From contig VBBS01000033.1 in assembly GCA_005888745.1 (NCBI GenBank), forward strand, positions 18,128 through 82,127: DNA of 64,000 nt, read 5' to 3'. Shown in pieces: positions 2,920 through 12,383 of this stretch (the stretch's first letter is position 1; each line of letters opens with the position of its first letter). Origin of the DNA: Candidatus Bathyarchaeota archaeon (GTDB lineage: Archaea > Thermoproteota > Bathyarchaeia > 40CM-2-53-6). The translations under genes and the position numbers were made by a program. A model generated the notes under the pieces. The model worked only from the letters and a program-made list of their open reading frames with translations. It had not been told where the DNA came from and searched no databases.

Positions 2920-3066
2920 ATGCCTGCGAAACGTTCGGGTACGACGGCGAAGAAACGAAAAGCGTACTATTACTACGCTGGAAAAGAGACCAAAGCAAAG
3001 AAAGTCGCAAGGAAAAAGGCAAAGAAGCCTACGAAAAAGCTAATCCCGAAACCAAGAAGGCAATAG
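2920..3066 (+). CDS. 48-residue lysine-rich basic protein
   Basis: Too short for the ORF track. An ATG at 2920 opens a 48-codon frame ending at TAG 3064-3066: MPAKRSGTTAKKRK, then a YYYYAGKE segment, then a run of KAKK/KKPTKK repeats ending PKPRRQ. Nearly half of the residues are Lys or Arg. Such composition suggests nucleic-acid binding, as in small archaeal chromatin proteins or ribosome-associated peptides, but no family is recognised. It lies between the HprK-like gene and the convergent primase-like gene, ending 5 bases before the latter's stop. Chance A-rich sequence is the main alternative. Confidence 0.5.
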   Translation: MPAKRSGTTAKKRKAYYYYAGKETKAKKVARKKAKKPTKKLIPKPRRQ

Positions 3067-3071
3067 CCGGT

Positions 3072-3884
3072 TCAGTTCAACGCGAAACCGGGAAGAAAGC
3101 GAGAGTCAGTCACGGGATCGAGAGAACGGACGCGGAACCTATCCAACGGTACAGCAAGGCGACTTACTAACCCGTTGAGGGAGTGGGGCAGTCTGATCAG
3201 CCTCATACCTCCGCCCCCAACCCACTCGTCCATCAAGTAGCCTCTACGAACAAGAGAGCGGATCAACGCGAGACGTTGTCTTTGTGTCCAGAAGAACGTG
3301 TCTTCATCCAGAACATGGATGTGGAACCCTCTCCCGGAATATACAAGCCGGAGTTCTCTGAAAGAACCAGACAGCTCGTCCATCAGCTCGAGTGCCTGCT
3401 CTTGGGCCAATTGGAGTTCTAATCTACAAAACGACAATCCTTGCCGTTTGCTCAGTTTCTCCTCAAGGTTGCCGTGTATTGGACAATCGAAATTCTCTGG
3501 GTCAATATCAAAAGCTAGTTGTTGACCGAAGGATTTGCCGAGTTCTTCGATCTTGCCGGGGCCACGTCTGGCTTCTTTCCAGTTTCCGTATACGTTCCTG
3601 TCATAATATACTGATTCGGGCCGGAACTCTACACAATATCGTCGGAGATCCTGCAACCCGTTGTATTCATCAATGAGAATTGTTCGTGATCTATCTCTTC
3701 GATATTCAGCGGGGAAGATTTTGGTGTGTCGTCCGATGACAACCGCGAAGACTATTGGTCTTGACCAGCCTCGAAACCATTTTTGCACGAGATCTGTCTT
3801 GAACTCTTGCCGGTAGAATTCGTACCTCTCCTGGATCGTTGCGGGGCGCATTTGGTCCGGGAATCGGTATTGCGATCTCATCAT
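3072..3884 (-). CDS. PriS-like archaeo-eukaryotic primase (DNA primase small-subunit family)
   Basis: Residues 125-128 (FDID) match the catalytic acidic motif of the primase small subunit. C134/H137 and C153 sit where PriS has its zinc knuckle, SGRGFHIHV (183-191) is the nucleotide-binding motif, and RLIRLPHSLNG (228-238) matches the third conserved block. At 270 aa it is shorter than the usual 330-350 aa. The N-terminal RREF-type block of canonical PriS is replaced by RPIVFAVVIGRH. It begins with ATG ATG directly after the ligase TAG, so the two are one operon. It may be the replicative primase catalytic subunit or a repair-type primase-polymerase paralogue; finding a second, canonical priS in the genome would decide. 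Confidence 0.8.
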   Translation of the reverse strand: MMRSQYRFPDQMRPATIQERYEFYRQEFKTDLVQKWFRGWSRPIVFAVVIGRHTKIFPAEYRRDRSRTILIDEYNGLQDLRRYCVEFRPESVYYDRNVYGNWKEARRGPGKIEELGKSFGQQLAFDIDPENFDCPIHGNLEEKLSKRQGLSFCRLELQLAQEQALELMDELSGSFRELRLVYSGRGFHIHVLDEDTFFWTQRQRLALIRSLVRRGYLMDEWVGGGGMRLIRLPHSLNGLVSRLAVPLDRFRVRSLDPVTDSRFLPGFALN

Positions 3885-5669
3885 CTACGCTGCTTCGACT
3901 GTAGTATTTTCGGTAACCTTCTTCAGTTGAGCCCGATACATTTCTACTATTTCATCCGTCGTGGTGCTGTCTTCAGCTGACTTGTCCTGACGATATTTTC
4001 CGGTAAACCTTGGAAACCTGACCGCTAGACCTGCCCCCGGCCTGATACTATTCATTCCACACGTGTGTATTGGGCTCAGCGTGATTTCTGCGCCAACTAT
4101 TTCGAGGACGAGTCCTGGGACGAACCACACGTCTGCCTCGATCTTGGAATCTACCCTCGAGTGACGGTGATCTACCCTATATTTCTCAAGAACTTTGGGC
4201 AATTTGTCCAAGTCTTCATCGGTAAATCCAGAACCGCATTTGCACGCCGTTCTGAATACGTCGTTGCGCTTATCATAGGCGGCAAGAAGCAGGGCGCCGT
4301 AGGTTCCACCTCGCCGTCCTCTGCCTGCGAATGCTCCCACTACGGCCAGATCGACGCTATCTTGCATTTCCGATCTATAGTCGCGTTTATACTTGATCCA
4401 GGTCCATCCCCTTGCCCCAGCCTTGTAAGTAGAGTCAGGGCCAATTGATTTGATCATCAAGCCTTCACAACCATTGGCGACTGCCTCCTGCATGAATTCA
4501 TCTAGCTGCACGGGGTCATTGCAAATTTTCTGTTGAGAAAGGTCAAGTCTTTCACTCTTTGGGATCAGCTTTCGAAGCCGTTCGCGTCTTTCGAGATAAG
4601 GCCGGTCAGTAAAGTCAATTGTGTCAGCGTACAGGAGGTCAAAGGGAAAGAAAGCAACCGGTATGTACTGGATCGTTTTTTCAAGGTCGTATTTTCTGCC
4701 TCTACGCTGCGAGATTAACTGGAATGGTAGAAGTTCACCCGTCGCCGAGGCAACGGGAACCGGTTCTCCTTCAAGGGTTAGTTCAGTTGCTGCTAGGTTA
4801 TTCTTCAGTAGTTGTTGCACATCTGGAAATTGGCCAGTGATGTTCTCAAGGCGTCTGGAGAAGAGCGTTGTCCCCTTAGGGGAGACATGCGCTTGAATCC
4901 TTAGGCCGTCGTACTTGTACTCGGCTGCACACTCTCCATTCATCTTCGCAAGGATTGCTTTCGCGTCAGAGAGCCGTTCCGCAAGCATCGGCCTGATAGG
5001 CTTCCCAATGGTAACCTTGAGGGACTCAATTGCTTTCATTCCTCGAGTAGCAAGAGTTTTAGCAACGTAACCGAGGTCGGACGAGCGATTGTAGGCGCGC
5101 TCTAGAGAGGGTCTTGATTCTTTTCCACCTCCAAGGGAAATCGCGAGAGCGTCAAGAATGGTCATGTCGGCGACTCCAAGCCGAAGACGGCCTAGAGCCA
5201 TTCGAGTGATGTATTTCGCTTCGGTTGGAGAAGCTTTTCCCAAGAGGTTTGTTAAATGTCTAAGCTTAGAGTTAATGGAGCCTTGGCCTGCTTCATGTGC
5301 TATTGTGTCGAAAGCGTTGTAGACTTGTTCTACGGAGAGGGCCTCTCTCTCAAAGGACACTTCGGTCTTTTCTTTGAGGAGCTGCTCAGCAACTGTTCCT
5401 AGATCGCCCAGCTTCTTGTAGAGAATTGTAACCTTCACTTCGGTTTGCCCGGTTACCGTCGCGAGAGCACGAAACAGGAGCTTCTCTGCTACTCCTAGCT
5501 CAATGCCGAGAAAATCTGGATACAGTCTTCCCTGAGTGAGGTAAACCACCTTATCGATAATTGGCTGCGGAGTATCATCTATGAGTTTGACAAGAAGACG
5601 GGTGATCTCCAACCGTTTCGTGGTCGCTTCGATCTTAGCGTACGTATCTACTATTCGCGAATAGAGCAA
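3885..5669 (-). CDS. lig: ATP-dependent DNA ligase
   Basis: A 594-residue ligase that seals nicks using ATP, joining Okazaki fragments and repair gaps. The N-terminal helical DNA-binding domain spans about 1-220. The nucleotidyltransferase domain starts at PMLAERL (227), with catalytic lysine K252 in EYKYDGLRIQAH. Later motifs include LEGEPVPV, EGLMIKS and WIKYKRDY, followed by an OB-fold. This is the archaeal/eukaryotic ligase I layout with no extra nuclease domain. The primase-like gene follows with zero spacing. The start codon at 5669 is TTG (MLYSRIV...); MLYSRIVDTYAKIE reads as a normal archaeal ligase N-terminus. Confidence 0.95.
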   Translation of the reverse strand: MLYSRIVDTYAKIEATTKRLEITRLLVKLIDDTPQPIIDKVVYLTQGRLYPDFLGIELGVAEKLLFRALATVTGQTEVKVTILYKKLGDLGTVAEQLLKEKTEVSFEREALSVEQVYNAFDTIAHEAGQGSINSKLRHLTNLLGKASPTEAKYITRMALGRLRLGVADMTILDALAISLGGGKESRPSLERAYNRSSDLGYVAKTLATRGMKAIESLKVTIGKPIRPMLAERLSDAKAILAKMNGECAAEYKYDGLRIQAHVSPKGTTLFSRRLENITGQFPDVQQLLKNNLAATELTLEGEPVPVASATGELLPFQLISQRRGRKYDLEKTIQYIPVAFFPFDLLYADTIDFTDRPYLERRERLRKLIPKSERLDLSQQKICNDPVQLDEFMQEAVANGCEGLMIKSIGPDSTYKAGARGWTWIKYKRDYRSEMQDSVDLAVVGAFAGRGRRGGTYGALLLAAYDKRNDVFRTACKCGSGFTDEDLDKLPKVLEKYRVDHRHSRVDSKIEADVWFVPGLVLEIVGAEITLSPIHTCGMNSIRPGAGLAVRFPRFTGKYRQDKSAEDSTTTDEIVEMYRAQLKKVTENTTVEAA

Positions 5670-8190: not shown

Positions 8191-8727
8191 ATGTGCGTAA
8201 TTGGCAAGAACCAATTGGTTAGCCTGATTAAGGCTTACAAGAGCATTCATCCATTTGATTACGGGCTCCTTGACGGAGATGGCTACGTTCTCACGGTGAA
8301 GGAGGAGAGGACTCTTCATTATCTGGAACACCGGAACCTTATCTCCAACGAGATTGTGTTTACTCCTCCGGAATTTGTGGCGCATCTCACCGCCAAGAGT
8401 AAGTATGGCAGAATGGGGCTTTCGTTTCTGAACGCCGCAAAAGTACATAGCGGCTTCATAGGTCGTCTCGCCCTCGAACTTGTTAACCTCAGCAACGAGC
8501 GACAACCGATTACAATCAAGAGGGGCGATCCTCTGATGCACATTGAGTTCATGAAGCGTGAGGGAGAAGCTTCACCCTACAATGGAGGCTACATGTTCCA
8601 ATTCATGAGTGAAGACGAAATCGGGGAATACATGTTGATCCTTGGGAGAGATTTCAAGACTTTGTTCTCCAAAGAGTACCTAACAAAGGCGGCTCAAGCG
8701 CGGGTTGCGCTAGTTACTCAAATCTAG
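8191..8727 (+). CDS. dcd: dCTP deaminase / dUTPase superfamily protein
   Basis: A 178-residue trimeric-fold nucleotide hydrolase. AKSKYGRMGLSFLNAAKVHSG followed by FIGRLALELVNLS matches the dCTP deaminase/dUTPase core, including the glutamate in the G-x-L-A-L-E strand used by dCTP deaminases. GDPLMHIEF fits the following strand. It should deaminate dCTP or hydrolyse dUTP, keeping uracil out of DNA and supplying dTMP synthesis. The RSS motif of most homologues reads KSKYGR here, so the exact activity is uncertain. It converges with an HD nucleotidase gene of related metabolism 68 bases downstream. Confidence 0.8.
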   Translation: MCVIGKNQLVSLIKAYKSIHPFDYGLLDGDGYVLTVKEERTLHYLEHRNLISNEIVFTPPEFVAHLTAKSKYGRMGLSFLNAAKVHSGFIGRLALELVNLSNERQPITIKRGDPLMHIEFMKREGEASPYNGGYMFQFMSEDEIGEYMLILGRDFKTLFSKEYLTKAAQARVALVTQI

Positions 8728-8795: not shown

Positions 8796-9344
8796 TCAGT
8801 TCTTGGGGGAAATTTCGTCCAGGAGCCTCCTTAGCTTGGGATCTTTCATTGTTGCCATAGAGGACTGATAGAATTCTTTCAGTTTCGTCGCTTCGATCCC
8901 TCCCCTAGCATATTCGTTCGCCTGAAGCGCCATCTCCAGCTTATCGAGTTCGTGAACTAGCTGGGCTTCCTTACTCCTTTCGTTCTCCAGCTGCGACCAC
9001 AGCTCCCGATAAGCTCGCTGATTCTCCTGCGGAAAATACGAAAGGAGTTGTTCTCTGGCGGAGATTTTCTGAGTTCTGACGACGTTTTCTCCCCTTGACT
9101 CTTTCTCCTTAGGCGTGAGATCCCCTGTAATCGCTTCTTCCAAGTCGTGCAATAGCGCGAGCTTTAGCAATTTTTCCACGTCATAGCCTCGCCTCTCACC
9201 TTCGAATAAGCAGAGCAGCGATAGTGCAAAAGAGTGATCGGCAACCGATTCATTTCTTTGAAGACGAAGCTTCTTGAGCCAGCCTCTGCGCGGCTCAGCT
9301 TTCAATCTCGCAGCGATTTCCCAAAACTGGACAAGCTGGTCCAA
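8796..9344 (-). CDS. HD-domain protein, YfbR-type 5'-deoxynucleotidase family
   Basis: A 182-residue HD phosphohydrolase. Metal ligands are visible as VADHSF (H near residue 37), LLHDLEEAITGD (HD near 68-69) and a later aspartate in HELDKLEMAL. The order and length match small HD proteins such as bacterial YfbR, which dephosphorylate deoxynucleoside 5'-monophosphates. The substrate here is inferred. It faces a dCTP deaminase/dUTPase homologue tail to tail, which fits a nucleotide-pool role. The start is an ATG-type codon at 9344 giving MDQLVQFWEIAARLK, a normal family N-terminus. Confidence 0.8.
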   Translation of the reverse strand: MDQLVQFWEIAARLKAEPRRGWLKKLRLQRNESVADHSFALSLLCLFEGERRGYDVEKLLKLALLHDLEEAITGDLTPKEKESRGENVVRTQKISAREQLLSYFPQENQRAYRELWSQLENERSKEAQLVHELDKLEMALQANEYARGGIEATKLKEFYQSSMATMKDPKLRRLLDEISPKN

Positions 9345-10240: not shown

Positions 10241-10894
10241 TCATAGAAGCGGAATACCTTCTTCAGCCAGCACCGTTTGCACTATGGCTCGCCTCCTATC
10301 CAATGCCGTTGCGGGCACGTATCTCGCGATAACACCCAGCGGTGTTCGGTCATGCCTCTCAATGTCGTAGAATTCGAACTGGTTCAAGGGCTGTCCAGAT
10401 ATCGGAACGCCAAGCCTCTTGGCCATTATTCCATGAAACCAGTGTCGTATGCGATGCGGATGGGCGCAAGCCCAATCTTCGATTCCAATCATTCTCGCGT
10501 ATTTATGCAGCAGATTGTTAGGGGTCTGATGACTGATCTGAAACACCTTTCCACTTCTTCGTGGTCCGACGAACTCCTTTAGTCGACTCAACAAGACGGG
10601 CGATATTGGGATTGATTCCCACGCTTTCCTCCACGGCTTATCAGAGGTTGGCGCGTATCCCTTTCCGGTTATCCAGACATATCCATCGTTCCACTTGATG
10701 TCCTCAATCATGATACCTGGCAGGTGGTTTCCTTTCTGATCTCCCCCTATCGCCTCTGCTCTTCTAAGCCCGTAATCAATGTAGAAGCCAAAGAGACAGA
10801 AGTGCTCTAGGTTCTCCTTCTCGGTAATCGTGAGGATTTGAGCGAGGTTACGACTCGTAAGATCGATCTCGTGCTTAGGCCCTTTTTTTTTCAA
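10241..10894 (-). CDS. Tyrosine recombinase / integrase catalytic domain (left module)
   Basis: A catalytic-core-only tyrosine recombinase of about 217 aa. Visible residues are the first arginine in YIDYGLRRAEAIG, a beta-hairpin lysine region (ITGKGYAP), H-x-x-R in HPHRIRHWF, a histidine in IERHDRTPLG and the likely nucleophile in VIARYVPA. The ORF track begins at 10993, inside the GIY-YIG gene. The better start is a TTG at 10894 that overlaps the upstream TGA (TTGA) with a GGAG-type site before it. An A9 run sits just after this start. No N-terminal arm-binding domain is present. It shares the motif LxKYARxxGxxxW with the right-hand recombinase, so the two are related. Confidence 0.75.
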   Translation of the reverse strand: MKKKGPKHEIDLTSRNLAQILTITEKENLEHFCLFGFYIDYGLRRAEAIGGDQKGNHLPGIMIEDIKWNDGYVWITGKGYAPTSDKPWRKAWESIPISPVLLSRLKEFVGPRRSGKVFQISHQTPNNLLHKYARMIGIEDWACAHPHRIRHWFHGIMAKRLGVPISGQPLNQFEFYDIERHDRTPLGVIARYVPATALDRRRAIVQTVLAEEGIPLL

Positions 10895-11445
10895 TTTTCT
10901 CCAAGCGTTTGCATCGCAAGCCTTCGAGTATGATGTGAGACCAGGTTCGACAGGGCTTTGGATTTGAGGTATTTCGCGGGAAAGTATTTCCACCTGTCAG
11001 ACTCGGCGACCTCAACGTTGTATTGATAGTTGAAAGGTGGCTTGAGCGAGCGGATGTGTTTGATTTCCTCGAGGTCCAACTCTCCTGGCCAGCATGGGTC
11101 GCTTTTGATCGAGTTTACCGTATCGTAGCAACAATCGATTGCCTGTTTGGACTCTATTATCGCTAAAGGCCATGCTATGATACGAGAAATCCTGTCAAAT
11201 GAAGCGACGTCTGTGCGCTGAGCCGCTTTCCTAATACGGATGTTCAGATGCTCGAAGTGTTCGTCGAAGAAGGATATCCATGAGCGAACGACATCGTGAT
11301 CGGCTTCATGTTTCGCTAGTCGAGCTCGAAGATTATTGGCTTTGCCAACGTAAAGTACGAGTCCCTGCTTGTTGTAGAGGAAGTAAATTCCCGGTTCGGC
11401 TCGAAACTCACCATGATGCTTCATTTTCACGTCAAATGGCATCAT
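10891..11445 (-). CDS. GIY-YIG endonuclease-like protein
   Basis: A 184-residue protein with PGIYFLYNKQG and LVLYVGKANNLRARLAKH near residues 18-45, the hallmark of the GIY-YIG nuclease domain (Y-x-Y-V-G-K-A-x-x-L-x-x-R). The catalytic glutamate may be in LDLEEIKHIRSLKPPFNYQ. The fold occurs in UvrC, Slx4-type repair nucleases and mobile homing endonucleases. Position immediately upstream of, and overlapping, a tyrosine recombinase suggests a mobile-element role. It is divergent from the HNH/recombinase module across a gap of about 50 bases that should hold both promoters. Confidence 0.8.
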   Translation of the reverse strand: MMPFDVKMKHHGEFRAEPGIYFLYNKQGLVLYVGKANNLRARLAKHEADHDVVRSWISFFDEHFEHLNIRIRKAAQRTDVASFDRISRIIAWPLAIIESKQAIDCCYDTVNSIKSDPCWPGELDLEEIKHIRSLKPPFNYQYNVEVAESDRWKYFPAKYLKSKALSNLVSHHTRRLAMQTLGEN

Positions 11446-11497
11446 TGTCCGCTGGAGAGCGAATTTAGTCTTTCTGTAATGGAAAGACTAATGATTC

Positions 11498-11774
11498 ATG
11501 GTCAATCCCAGGCGAAACAGCATGTTTGTTGATATACCCTGCACTTCAACTAATACGTGTCAGAGATGCGGCATGGTCTCGCTCTACAGCCCTAGGAGGG
11601 GCCTGGTTTCAGGGCGCTGGGACCCCTACATGCTTGTCCATCATATCGACAAGAAATCGTAGCAATAATTCTCTTGAGAACCTCAAGCTCGTTTGCCCAA
11701 CATGTCATGTCAAAGAACATGGCAAAGAGTGGGGAAATACCGGGAAGGAAAAGAAGCAGGGACGTGTTTGTTAG
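11498..11774 (+). pseudogene. HNH endonuclease, split by a single-base frameshift
   Basis: Two frames together give one HNH nuclease. From ATG 11498 (or 11522) the first frame encodes CQRCG, then SGRWDPYMLVHHIDKK and a stop. The second frame (ORF-track 11526..11774) continues with SNNSLENLKLVCPTCHVKEH. Joined, they give C-x2-C, HHID, N-x-x-x-N-L and C-x2-C-H, the full HNH plus zinc layout. The break is at the A-run in GACAAGAAATCG near 11656, where one extra base is present. It is either decayed, an assembly indel, or read by frameshifting. It lies one base before the right-hand recombinase start. Confidence 0.7.
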
Positions 11775-12383
11775 ATGCGTGTAAGTAGAGATGGACGGGG
11801 AGAGACCTGGCTGACTGACGCACAGAAGAACCGTATTCTTGGGTTAGCCAGGATGGTTCCTAGGGACGAGCTACTTTTGGGACTTCAACTTGAACGGGGA
11901 TGGCGTATCGGCAGCATCGTGGGTTGCCACAACAGAGTGACATACACGAGAAAGAGGACGGGTGAAAAGGTTGTGTGCATCGTTGATCTTCCAGGAATAA
12001 GAAAGGAGGACGTGGGGCCGGAGACCATAATGGTCCGATTCAAGGGCGGAAGGACAGAGGCGGACTACCCTGGGAAGAAGTGGCTCAGACTCGCTCAGAG
12101 ACTAGCGTCTAAAACCGAAGAGGGTGAAAGAATCATTCCTCTTAGCGAGTGGCATTCAACAAATATTCTACGGAAATACGCAAGACTCGCGGGGGTTCCA
12201 AACTGGGACCGTCTCCATAACCACCGCCAACGGGCCTATTTCGGGACATTCTGGGCCCGCAAGACCGGTAGGGACCCTTGGAAGGTTCAGAGCCTGATGG
12301 GACACAAGGACTTGAGGGCAACAGAAGTATACGTTAAACAGCTGTCTCTCGAGGAGAAGAAGAAACTCCTAGACAAGTCCTAG
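11775..12383 (+). CDS. Tyrosine recombinase / integrase catalytic domain (right module)
   Basis: A 202-residue recombinase core. Catalytic positions: arginine in LERGWRIGSIVG (near 44), H-x-x-R in NHRQRAYFGTF, histidine in LMGHKDLRATEVYV and the nucleophilic tyrosine of EVYV. Like the left-hand copy it lacks an N-terminal core-binding or SAM-like domain, and shares RKYARLAGVPNW. It begins with ATG directly after the HNH gene stop. Such enzymes integrate or excise elements or resolve dimers. Short length may mean an archaeal minimal integrase or a remnant. Confidence 0.78.
   Translation: MRVSRDGRGETWLTDAQKNRILGLARMVPRDELLLGLQLERGWRIGSIVGCHNRVTYTRKRTGEKVVCIVDLPGIRKEDVGPETIMVRFKGGRTEADYPGKKWLRLAQRLASKTEEGERIIPLSEWHSTNILRKYARLAGVPNWDRLHNHRQRAYFGTFWARKTGRDPWKVQSLMGHKDLRATEVYVKQLSLEEKKKLLDKS

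Follow-up and report, generated by a model that had tools for sequence, protein, structure and literature searches.

A gene encoding a protein related to the catalytic subunit of archaeal primase (PriS) lies directly behind a DNA ligase gene in the genome of a soil Candidatus Bathyarchaeota archaeon, raising the question of what a primase-polymerase of this kind does beside a ligase, i.e., whether it serves replication, end joining or some other form of DNA repair. The locus was studied within a window, that is, the whole stretch of 64,000 nucleotides analysed (C46:18128-82127), which belongs to a 2.195-Mb assembly that is 93% complete. The PriS-like protein is referred to here as mini-PriS.

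The Locus and Its Two Genes

Both open reading frames of the preliminary description were verified on the minus strand (Table 1), together with their junction, which reads GAA GCA GCG TAG followed directly by ATG ATG. The two genes had been called fused; they are indeed adjacent, and it is adjacency only, with no fusion.

Table 1. Positions of the two genes, their junction and the motifs of mini-PriS in the window.
Feature	Position	Strand	Basis
ATP-dependent DNA ligase, 594 aa, most simply class-wide LigA-type housekeeping	3885..5669	-	PF04675/PF01068/PF04679; TIGR00574 471.9 bits; 52-59% identity to ~590-aa ligases of other sampled Bathyarchaeia
TAG-ATG ligase/mini-PriS junction, zero spacer	3882..3887	-	read from sequence
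mini-PriS, 270-aa PriS-like archaeo-eukaryotic primase/polymerase (AEP) paralogue	3072..3884	-	ORF; PF01896; TIGR00335 below cut-off; AF2 pLDDT 92.3; best PDB fold matches archaeal PriS
Family-specific N-terminal block FAVxIGRHTxI ... PESxYYDRNxY, residues 46-99	3588..3749	-	kept in short family
Motif I, catalytic D126-x-D128 (AFDIDPEN)	3501..3509	-	invariant in 36 sequences
Putative zinc-binding Cys134-Pro-x-His137-Gly ... Cys153, between motifs I and II	3426..3485	-	invariant residues; metal role by analogy with PriS zinc motifs (PMC4434180)
Motif II, S183-GRGF-H188	3321..3338	-	S183, G184, R185, G186, H188 invariant
Third catalytic D219 and flange R231-LPxSL-N237 (DEWVxxGxMRLIRLPxSL)	3174..3230	-	D219, R231, L232, P233, L236 invariant; D219 aligns with canonical D310

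The 30-kDa mini-PriS barely passes the Pfam threshold for DNA_primase_S (E=4.4e-6, 27.6 bits against a cut-off of 26.8) and reaches 45 bits with the NCBIfam PriS model TIGR00335, far under its equivalog cut-off of 143.5; it is therefore no regular PriS. All three DNA ligase domains are present in its neighbour according to Pfam. Low dN/dS values relative to the nearest relatives (about 0.12-0.15 for mini-PriS, 0.09-0.15 for the ligase) indicate that both genes are under purifying selection. Given these values and an adjacency to the ligase that is kept down to 55% protein identity, mini-PriS is no chance ORF. Those relatives that carry a name, with identities of 91% or lower, are MAGs of Bathyarchaeota/Crenarchaeota obtained from soil.

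Several other genes surround the pair. Between a 391-aa gene and mini-PriS lies a Lys/Arg-rich ORF of 48 codons (MPAKRSGTTAKKRKAYYYYAGKETKAKKVARKKAKKPTKKLIPKPRRQ, window 2920-3066, plus strand), which by eye resembles a small basic protein that binds DNA or RNA. Upstream of the ligase, at a distance of a few kb, a dCTP-deaminase-like gene (8191-8727, plus strand) and an HD-domain nucleotidase-like gene (8796-9344, minus strand) were also named by eye; both are kept as neighbours across the family to which the window belongs, so that dNTP-pool genes are found near the ligase/mini-PriS pair. Further on, two related tyrosine-recombinase-like ORFs of one cluster (c30; 10241-10993, minus strand, and 11775-12383, plus strand) have between them a UvrC/GIY-YIG-like ORF (10891-11445, minus strand), and the region 10241-12383 is possibly the leftover of an integrated element.

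A Shortened Member of the PriS Clade

The invariance of sequence motifs was scored in 36 mini-PriS sequences from several phyla. D126, D128, H188, D219 and R231, as well as the SGRG and RLPxxL motifs, are invariant in all of them, which places the family by motif in the AEP-proper (PriS) clade. Mini-PriS shares with canonical archaeal PriS (TIGR00335, PF01896; P. furiosus 1g71, P. horikoshii 1v33) the three catalytic aspartates, the SGxRGxH motif, the RLPxSL flange and an N-terminal helix of the form REVTxEERxxFYxxE. An altered N-terminal block had been reported in the preliminary description. This does not hold for the first helix (RPATxxERxxFYxxEF), a normal PriS N-terminus, but it does for a family-specific stretch at about residues 37-99; the alignment with canonical PriS begins only at residue 74, so that the first part of the block at residues 46-99 is unmatched there.

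Members of the family are about 265 aa long, and a large difference from canonical PriS is found between motif II and the third aspartate. While 126 residues separate the motif II histidine from the third aspartate in the genome's own canonical PriS, only 31 do so in mini-PriS, which is about 95 residues shorter in this part. It has been described that a helical subdomain is inserted in the prim domain of cellular PriS, and that in plasmid AEPs the helical subdomain is required for primer synthesis (PMC4434180). This subdomain would be the natural candidate for the stretch absent from mini-PriS, and the AlphaFold2 (AF2) model displays only short helices between motif II and the third aspartate, with no helical subdomain.

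The AF2 model is confident (mean pLDDT 92.3), and its top solved matches in Foldseek are archaeal PriS structures (TM 0.70, E=2.1e-12), pointing to a predicted prim fold, while Prim-PolC and LigD-Pol structures are more distant, at a TM of about 0.5 (0.52 for Prim-PolC). A profile comparison with hhalign aligned mini-PriS to canonical PriS with 99.7% probability, bridging the large internal gap and setting D219 on the third catalytic aspartate, against 3.8% for LigD-Pol; Pfam and NCBIfam searches yielded no LigD-Pol family match for mini-PriS.

The family also differs from canonical PriS in its own Cys/His pattern. In addition to C134, H137 and C153, many non-bathyarchaeal members carry an extra CxxC...CxxC cluster directly before motif I, observed in Archaeoglobi, Asgard and Thermoplasmatota (L112, L114, L118, L125, L132 and similar loci), which most bathyarchaeal members have lost. 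By analogy, the two sets of residues can be regarded as two putative metal sites.

Spread and Phylogeny of the Family

A family search of 201 sampled Bathyarchaeia genomes returned 62 matches at E<=1e-3, two of which were weak matches to canonical PriS and were left out, so that mini-PriS is counted in 60 of the 201 genomes; canonical PriS exceeds the curated cut-off in 171 of them. Scanning a species-level genome collection extended the family to Archaeoglobi (Archaeoglobus, Geoglobus), the Asgard groups Jordarchaeia and Freyarchaeota, and Thermoplasmatota, and further to Altiarchaeales, a DPANN archaeon, Jingweiarchaeum and Methylarchaceae. The two groups of proteins are well apart in family-profile scores, mini-PriS members reaching at least 306 bits versus 37-84 for canonical PriS. 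Some soil Thermoplasmatota loci (L119, L130, L135, L138) seemed to carry tandem or fused copies, but this proved to be an effect of clustering, which had merged a neighbouring aldo-keto reductase via an overlapping ORF. Among the 12 non-bathyarchaeal mini-PriS genomes checked, 10 also encode a canonical PriS over the cut-off. Jingweiarchaeum (L095, G205) and one Archaeoglobi MAG (L121, G211) present mini-PriS only, no match to canonical PriS being found in either MAG; these may be incomplete assemblies or carry a divergent primase.

In a tree of 64 sequences, 37 short proteins are split from 27 canonical ones by one long branch (SH-aLRT 100); the tree comes from a quick search without bootstrap, and the split is very long and not reliant on fine detail. 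The bathyarchaeal mini-PriS proteins fall inside the short clade, away from bathyarchaeal PriS, and since they group with the short clade and not with their own PriS, the duplication is old. Judged from its sequences, mini-PriS is a discrete, ancient archaeal AEP family. It is a variant inside the AEP-proper clade and not a new kind of system. The Methylarchaceae members (L083, L085) are nested among Bathyarchaeia, which suggests either a transfer between both groups or a classification problem, and this nesting, together with the patchiness of the family, suggests loss and transfer in its history. Searches of the open literature, with arCOG tables and subscription papers out of reach, returned no description of mini-PriS.

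In mobile elements, the PolpTN2 and PrimPol-PV1 families (PMC5862659) also contain a PriS-like AEP domain that differs from the replicative primase, but unlike them mini-PriS lacks a PriL-like or helicase part. No relatives were found in the viral contig collection and no PHROG matched; on these results and the defence checks, a viral or defence origin was rejected.

The Ligase and the Gene Neighbourhood

The ligase of the window is closest to a type of about 590 aa from other sampled families of the class (Table 1), including genomes in which it is the single ligase detected (G004, G008, G123), while its identity to the second class-wide ligase type is only about 28-34%. Because of this identity and of its presence as a single detected ligase, it is read most simply as the housekeeping ligase of the cell, of a class-wide type. 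The idea that it might be an extra, specialised third ligase was ruled out by the comparison across the class.

Ligase and mini-PriS follow each other in the same direction in all 15 gene-carrying genomes of the window's family f1 (genera g1 and g3), about -4 to +36 nt apart, the exact zero spacing being particular to the window species. In other lineages the two genes are unlinked: a ligase next to mini-PriS was absent from all sampled loci outside f1, and a conserved neighbourhood was sought there and not found. The neighbours vary, and comprise a TrpRS gene (4-nt overlap, two genera), AdoHcy hydrolase/IMPase, a CCA-adding enzyme and a SOD/DLDH region. In genera g7 and g10 (L048 1484-2257; L106), mini-PriS overlaps or abuts the end of the tryptophanyl-tRNA synthetase-like gene; the CCA-adding-enzyme-like gene precedes it in G181.

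Within this frame, the adjacency might be fortuitous, reflecting a single landing of mini-PriS downstream of the ligase in the f1 ancestor that was kept for expression from the ligase operon. This explanation, to which we give slightly less than an even chance, fits the confinement of the link to f1 loci and the junction spacing, which is not conserved. It also fits three genomes (G070, G082 and G115) in which the ligase and its flanks are kept and the slot is without mini-PriS; such an empty slot with intact flanks indicates that mini-PriS is accessory and was gained or lost as a unit. On the other hand, the link persists in g1 and g3 at 55-60% identity while the downstream flanks have changed in g3, and of the possible sites mini-PriS is located behind a DNA-repair partner.

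Replication and End Joining Have Their Own Genes

The same genome encodes, on contig C60, a canonical 404-aa PriS that overlaps PriL, the pair whose search had been proposed in the preliminary description. On contig C33, a NHEJ locus (L004, G000:C33:28294-31839) contains Ku and, behind it on the same strand, a small LigD-type ligase; an adjoining 302-aa LigD-type Pol runs divergently on the opposite strand. A second large ligase is also found on C33, beside a gene that we take, by eye, to be FEN1-like. The presence of a canonical PriS-PriL pair and of a NHEJ set at other loci implies that the pair of the window is distinct from both the replicative primase and the NHEJ set.

The earlier view of mini-PriS as a shortened, divergent PriS paralogue, distinct from the replicative primase, is borne out by the C60 pair and by a phylogeny in which none of the sampled canonical PriS groups with the short family. 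The refuting condition set in the preliminary description, a genome without another priS and a place inside ordinary PriS in the tree, thus did not come true. That mini-PriS is an alternative replicative subunit, working with PriL to make Okazaki fragments, is very improbable. Although the PriS fold and motifs and the two MAGs with mini-PriS only would agree with it, those MAGs may be explained as stated above, mini-PriS is not beside PriL, which is overlapped by the canonical PriS, and the gene is dispensable.

The preliminary description also took a ligase next to an AEP as a mark of end joining, and saw no Ku. The latter is true of the window, where no Ku lies at or near mini-PriS, but not of the genome, whose sole Ku is that of C33, with its own ligase and Pol. 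A NHEJ or back-up NHEJ module formed by the ligase and mini-PriS is quite improbable, Ku-dependent end joining being less likely than damage tolerance. The adjacency resembles LigD and the archaeal AP-NHEJ operons, and in Methanocella paludicola, with its Pol/Lig/PE/Ku set, separate AEP and ligase genes also lie side by side (PMC4797286). In addition, the PriSL of Sulfolobales is capable of microhomology-mediated joining (PMC12019639). Unlike the Methanocella locus, that of mini-PriS lacks Ku, and it involves another AEP family, with the hhalign result against LigD-Pol given above, and another ligase, of housekeeping type.

Co-occurrence was counted over the 201 Bathyarchaeia genomes, uncorrected for phylogeny, genome size or incompleteness. 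Mini-PriS and Ku are found together in 31 genomes, mini-PriS only in 29, Ku only in 16 and neither in 125, a positive association (odds ratio 8.4, p=3e-9 by genome; p=0.0017 by genus) that is above expectation also within family f11 (p=3e-6, uncorrected for phylogeny) and speaks for the end-joining reading. A part in break repair, a shared genome size or common ancestry could lie behind this correlation. Against that reading, 29 of the 60 mini-PriS genomes have no detected Ku, among them all 11 mini-PriS members of family f15, which shows that mini-PriS does not depend on it. Ku itself, present in 47 of the 201 genomes, is commoner here than the literature, with its "very few archaea", suggests.

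A Candidate Gap-Filling Repair Polymerase

The intact active site, the loss of the insert, the coexistence with PriSL and the NHEJ Pol and the link to the ligase make gap filling in excision-type repair the most likely function. By analogy, mini-PriS may be an AEP-superfamily polymerase with an accessory role in the repair of short gaps, a stand-alone enzyme without the helical insert that hands over its product to a ligase; we consider this proposal evenly poised between being right and wrong. The patchy presence of the gene (60 of 201) and its clean absence from the three empty slots argue for the accessory role. Mini-PriS would extend a 3'-OH across short gaps arising in base excision, ribonucleotide removal or flap processing, using two-metal catalysis at D126, D128 and D219. 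Lacking the helical subdomain, it would make primers de novo only poorly, and, being translated with the ligase, it would pass the filled nick over for sealing. Nevertheless, loss of the helical insert alone leaves priming possible, and the ligase link, being found in one family only, may be a local one.

The mode of work envisaged is like that of mycobacterial Prim-PolC, which fills gaps of 1-3 nt that the operonic LigC then seals (PMC5663958). There too a stand-alone AEP goes with an ATP-dependent ligase in a host that has a separate LigD-type NHEJ. The descent would be different, as Prim-PolC is a relative of LigD-Pol, whereas mini-PriS lacks LigD-Pol profile affinity, has a weaker fold match to Prim-PolC and would derive from PriS; moreover, the ligase of the window is of the three-domain housekeeping type and not LigC.

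Full-length PolX occurs in 34 of the 201 genomes and shares only one with mini-PriS, where about 10 would be expected (p=5e-5 by genome, 0.17 by genus). This near-exclusive pattern was counted toward the reading of mini-PriS as a repair polymerase; by genome, though non-significantly by genus, it suggests an interchange between both enzymes. The Y-family polymerase DinB is positively associated with mini-PriS (42 of the 60 mini-PriS genomes), and its replacement by mini-PriS was rejected.

The main rival to gap filling is damage tolerance, in which mini-PriS would act like PrimPol, bypassing lesions or repriming past stalled forks, and the neighbouring ligase would merely seal later. We regard it as unlikely, albeit worth serious attention. 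UV photoproducts, 8-oxo-G and uracil are all bypassed by the PriS proteins of P. furiosus and A. fulgidus, and eukaryotes have in PrimPol a separate AEP for this task (PMC4538821); likewise, mini-PriS is patchy and coexists with canonical PriS, and its extra Cys cluster could be a zinc element in several lineages. Set against this are the lack of the helical insert and the association with DinB, by which mini-PriS is no simple replacement of TLS polymerases. The likelihoods given to the different readings do not sum to one, since an incidental adjacency is compatible with both gap repair and damage tolerance.

Significance

In its broadest form, the gap-repair proposal would make mini-PriS an unrecognised second PriS-derived polymerase family without the helical insert, spread across several archaeal phyla and adding a third AEP class to the replicative PriS and LigD-Pol of archaea. 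It would be a dedicated gap-filler that one bathyarchaeal family has coupled to its housekeeping ligase, in convergence with bacterial excision repair by Prim-PolC/LigC. This view is tentative, somewhat more apt to fail than to hold. As the closest solved homologues are primase catalytic subunits, members are likely to receive the label "DNA primase small subunit" and to escape notice, and surveys or phylogenies could mistakenly count them as replicative PriS. Gap-filling repair polymerases are unclear in many archaea, and a compact PriS-derived protein present in several phyla, including Asgard, is a concrete candidate. If the proposal is true, repair would have gained a polymerase through the trimming of a replicative primase, by a route independent of LigD.
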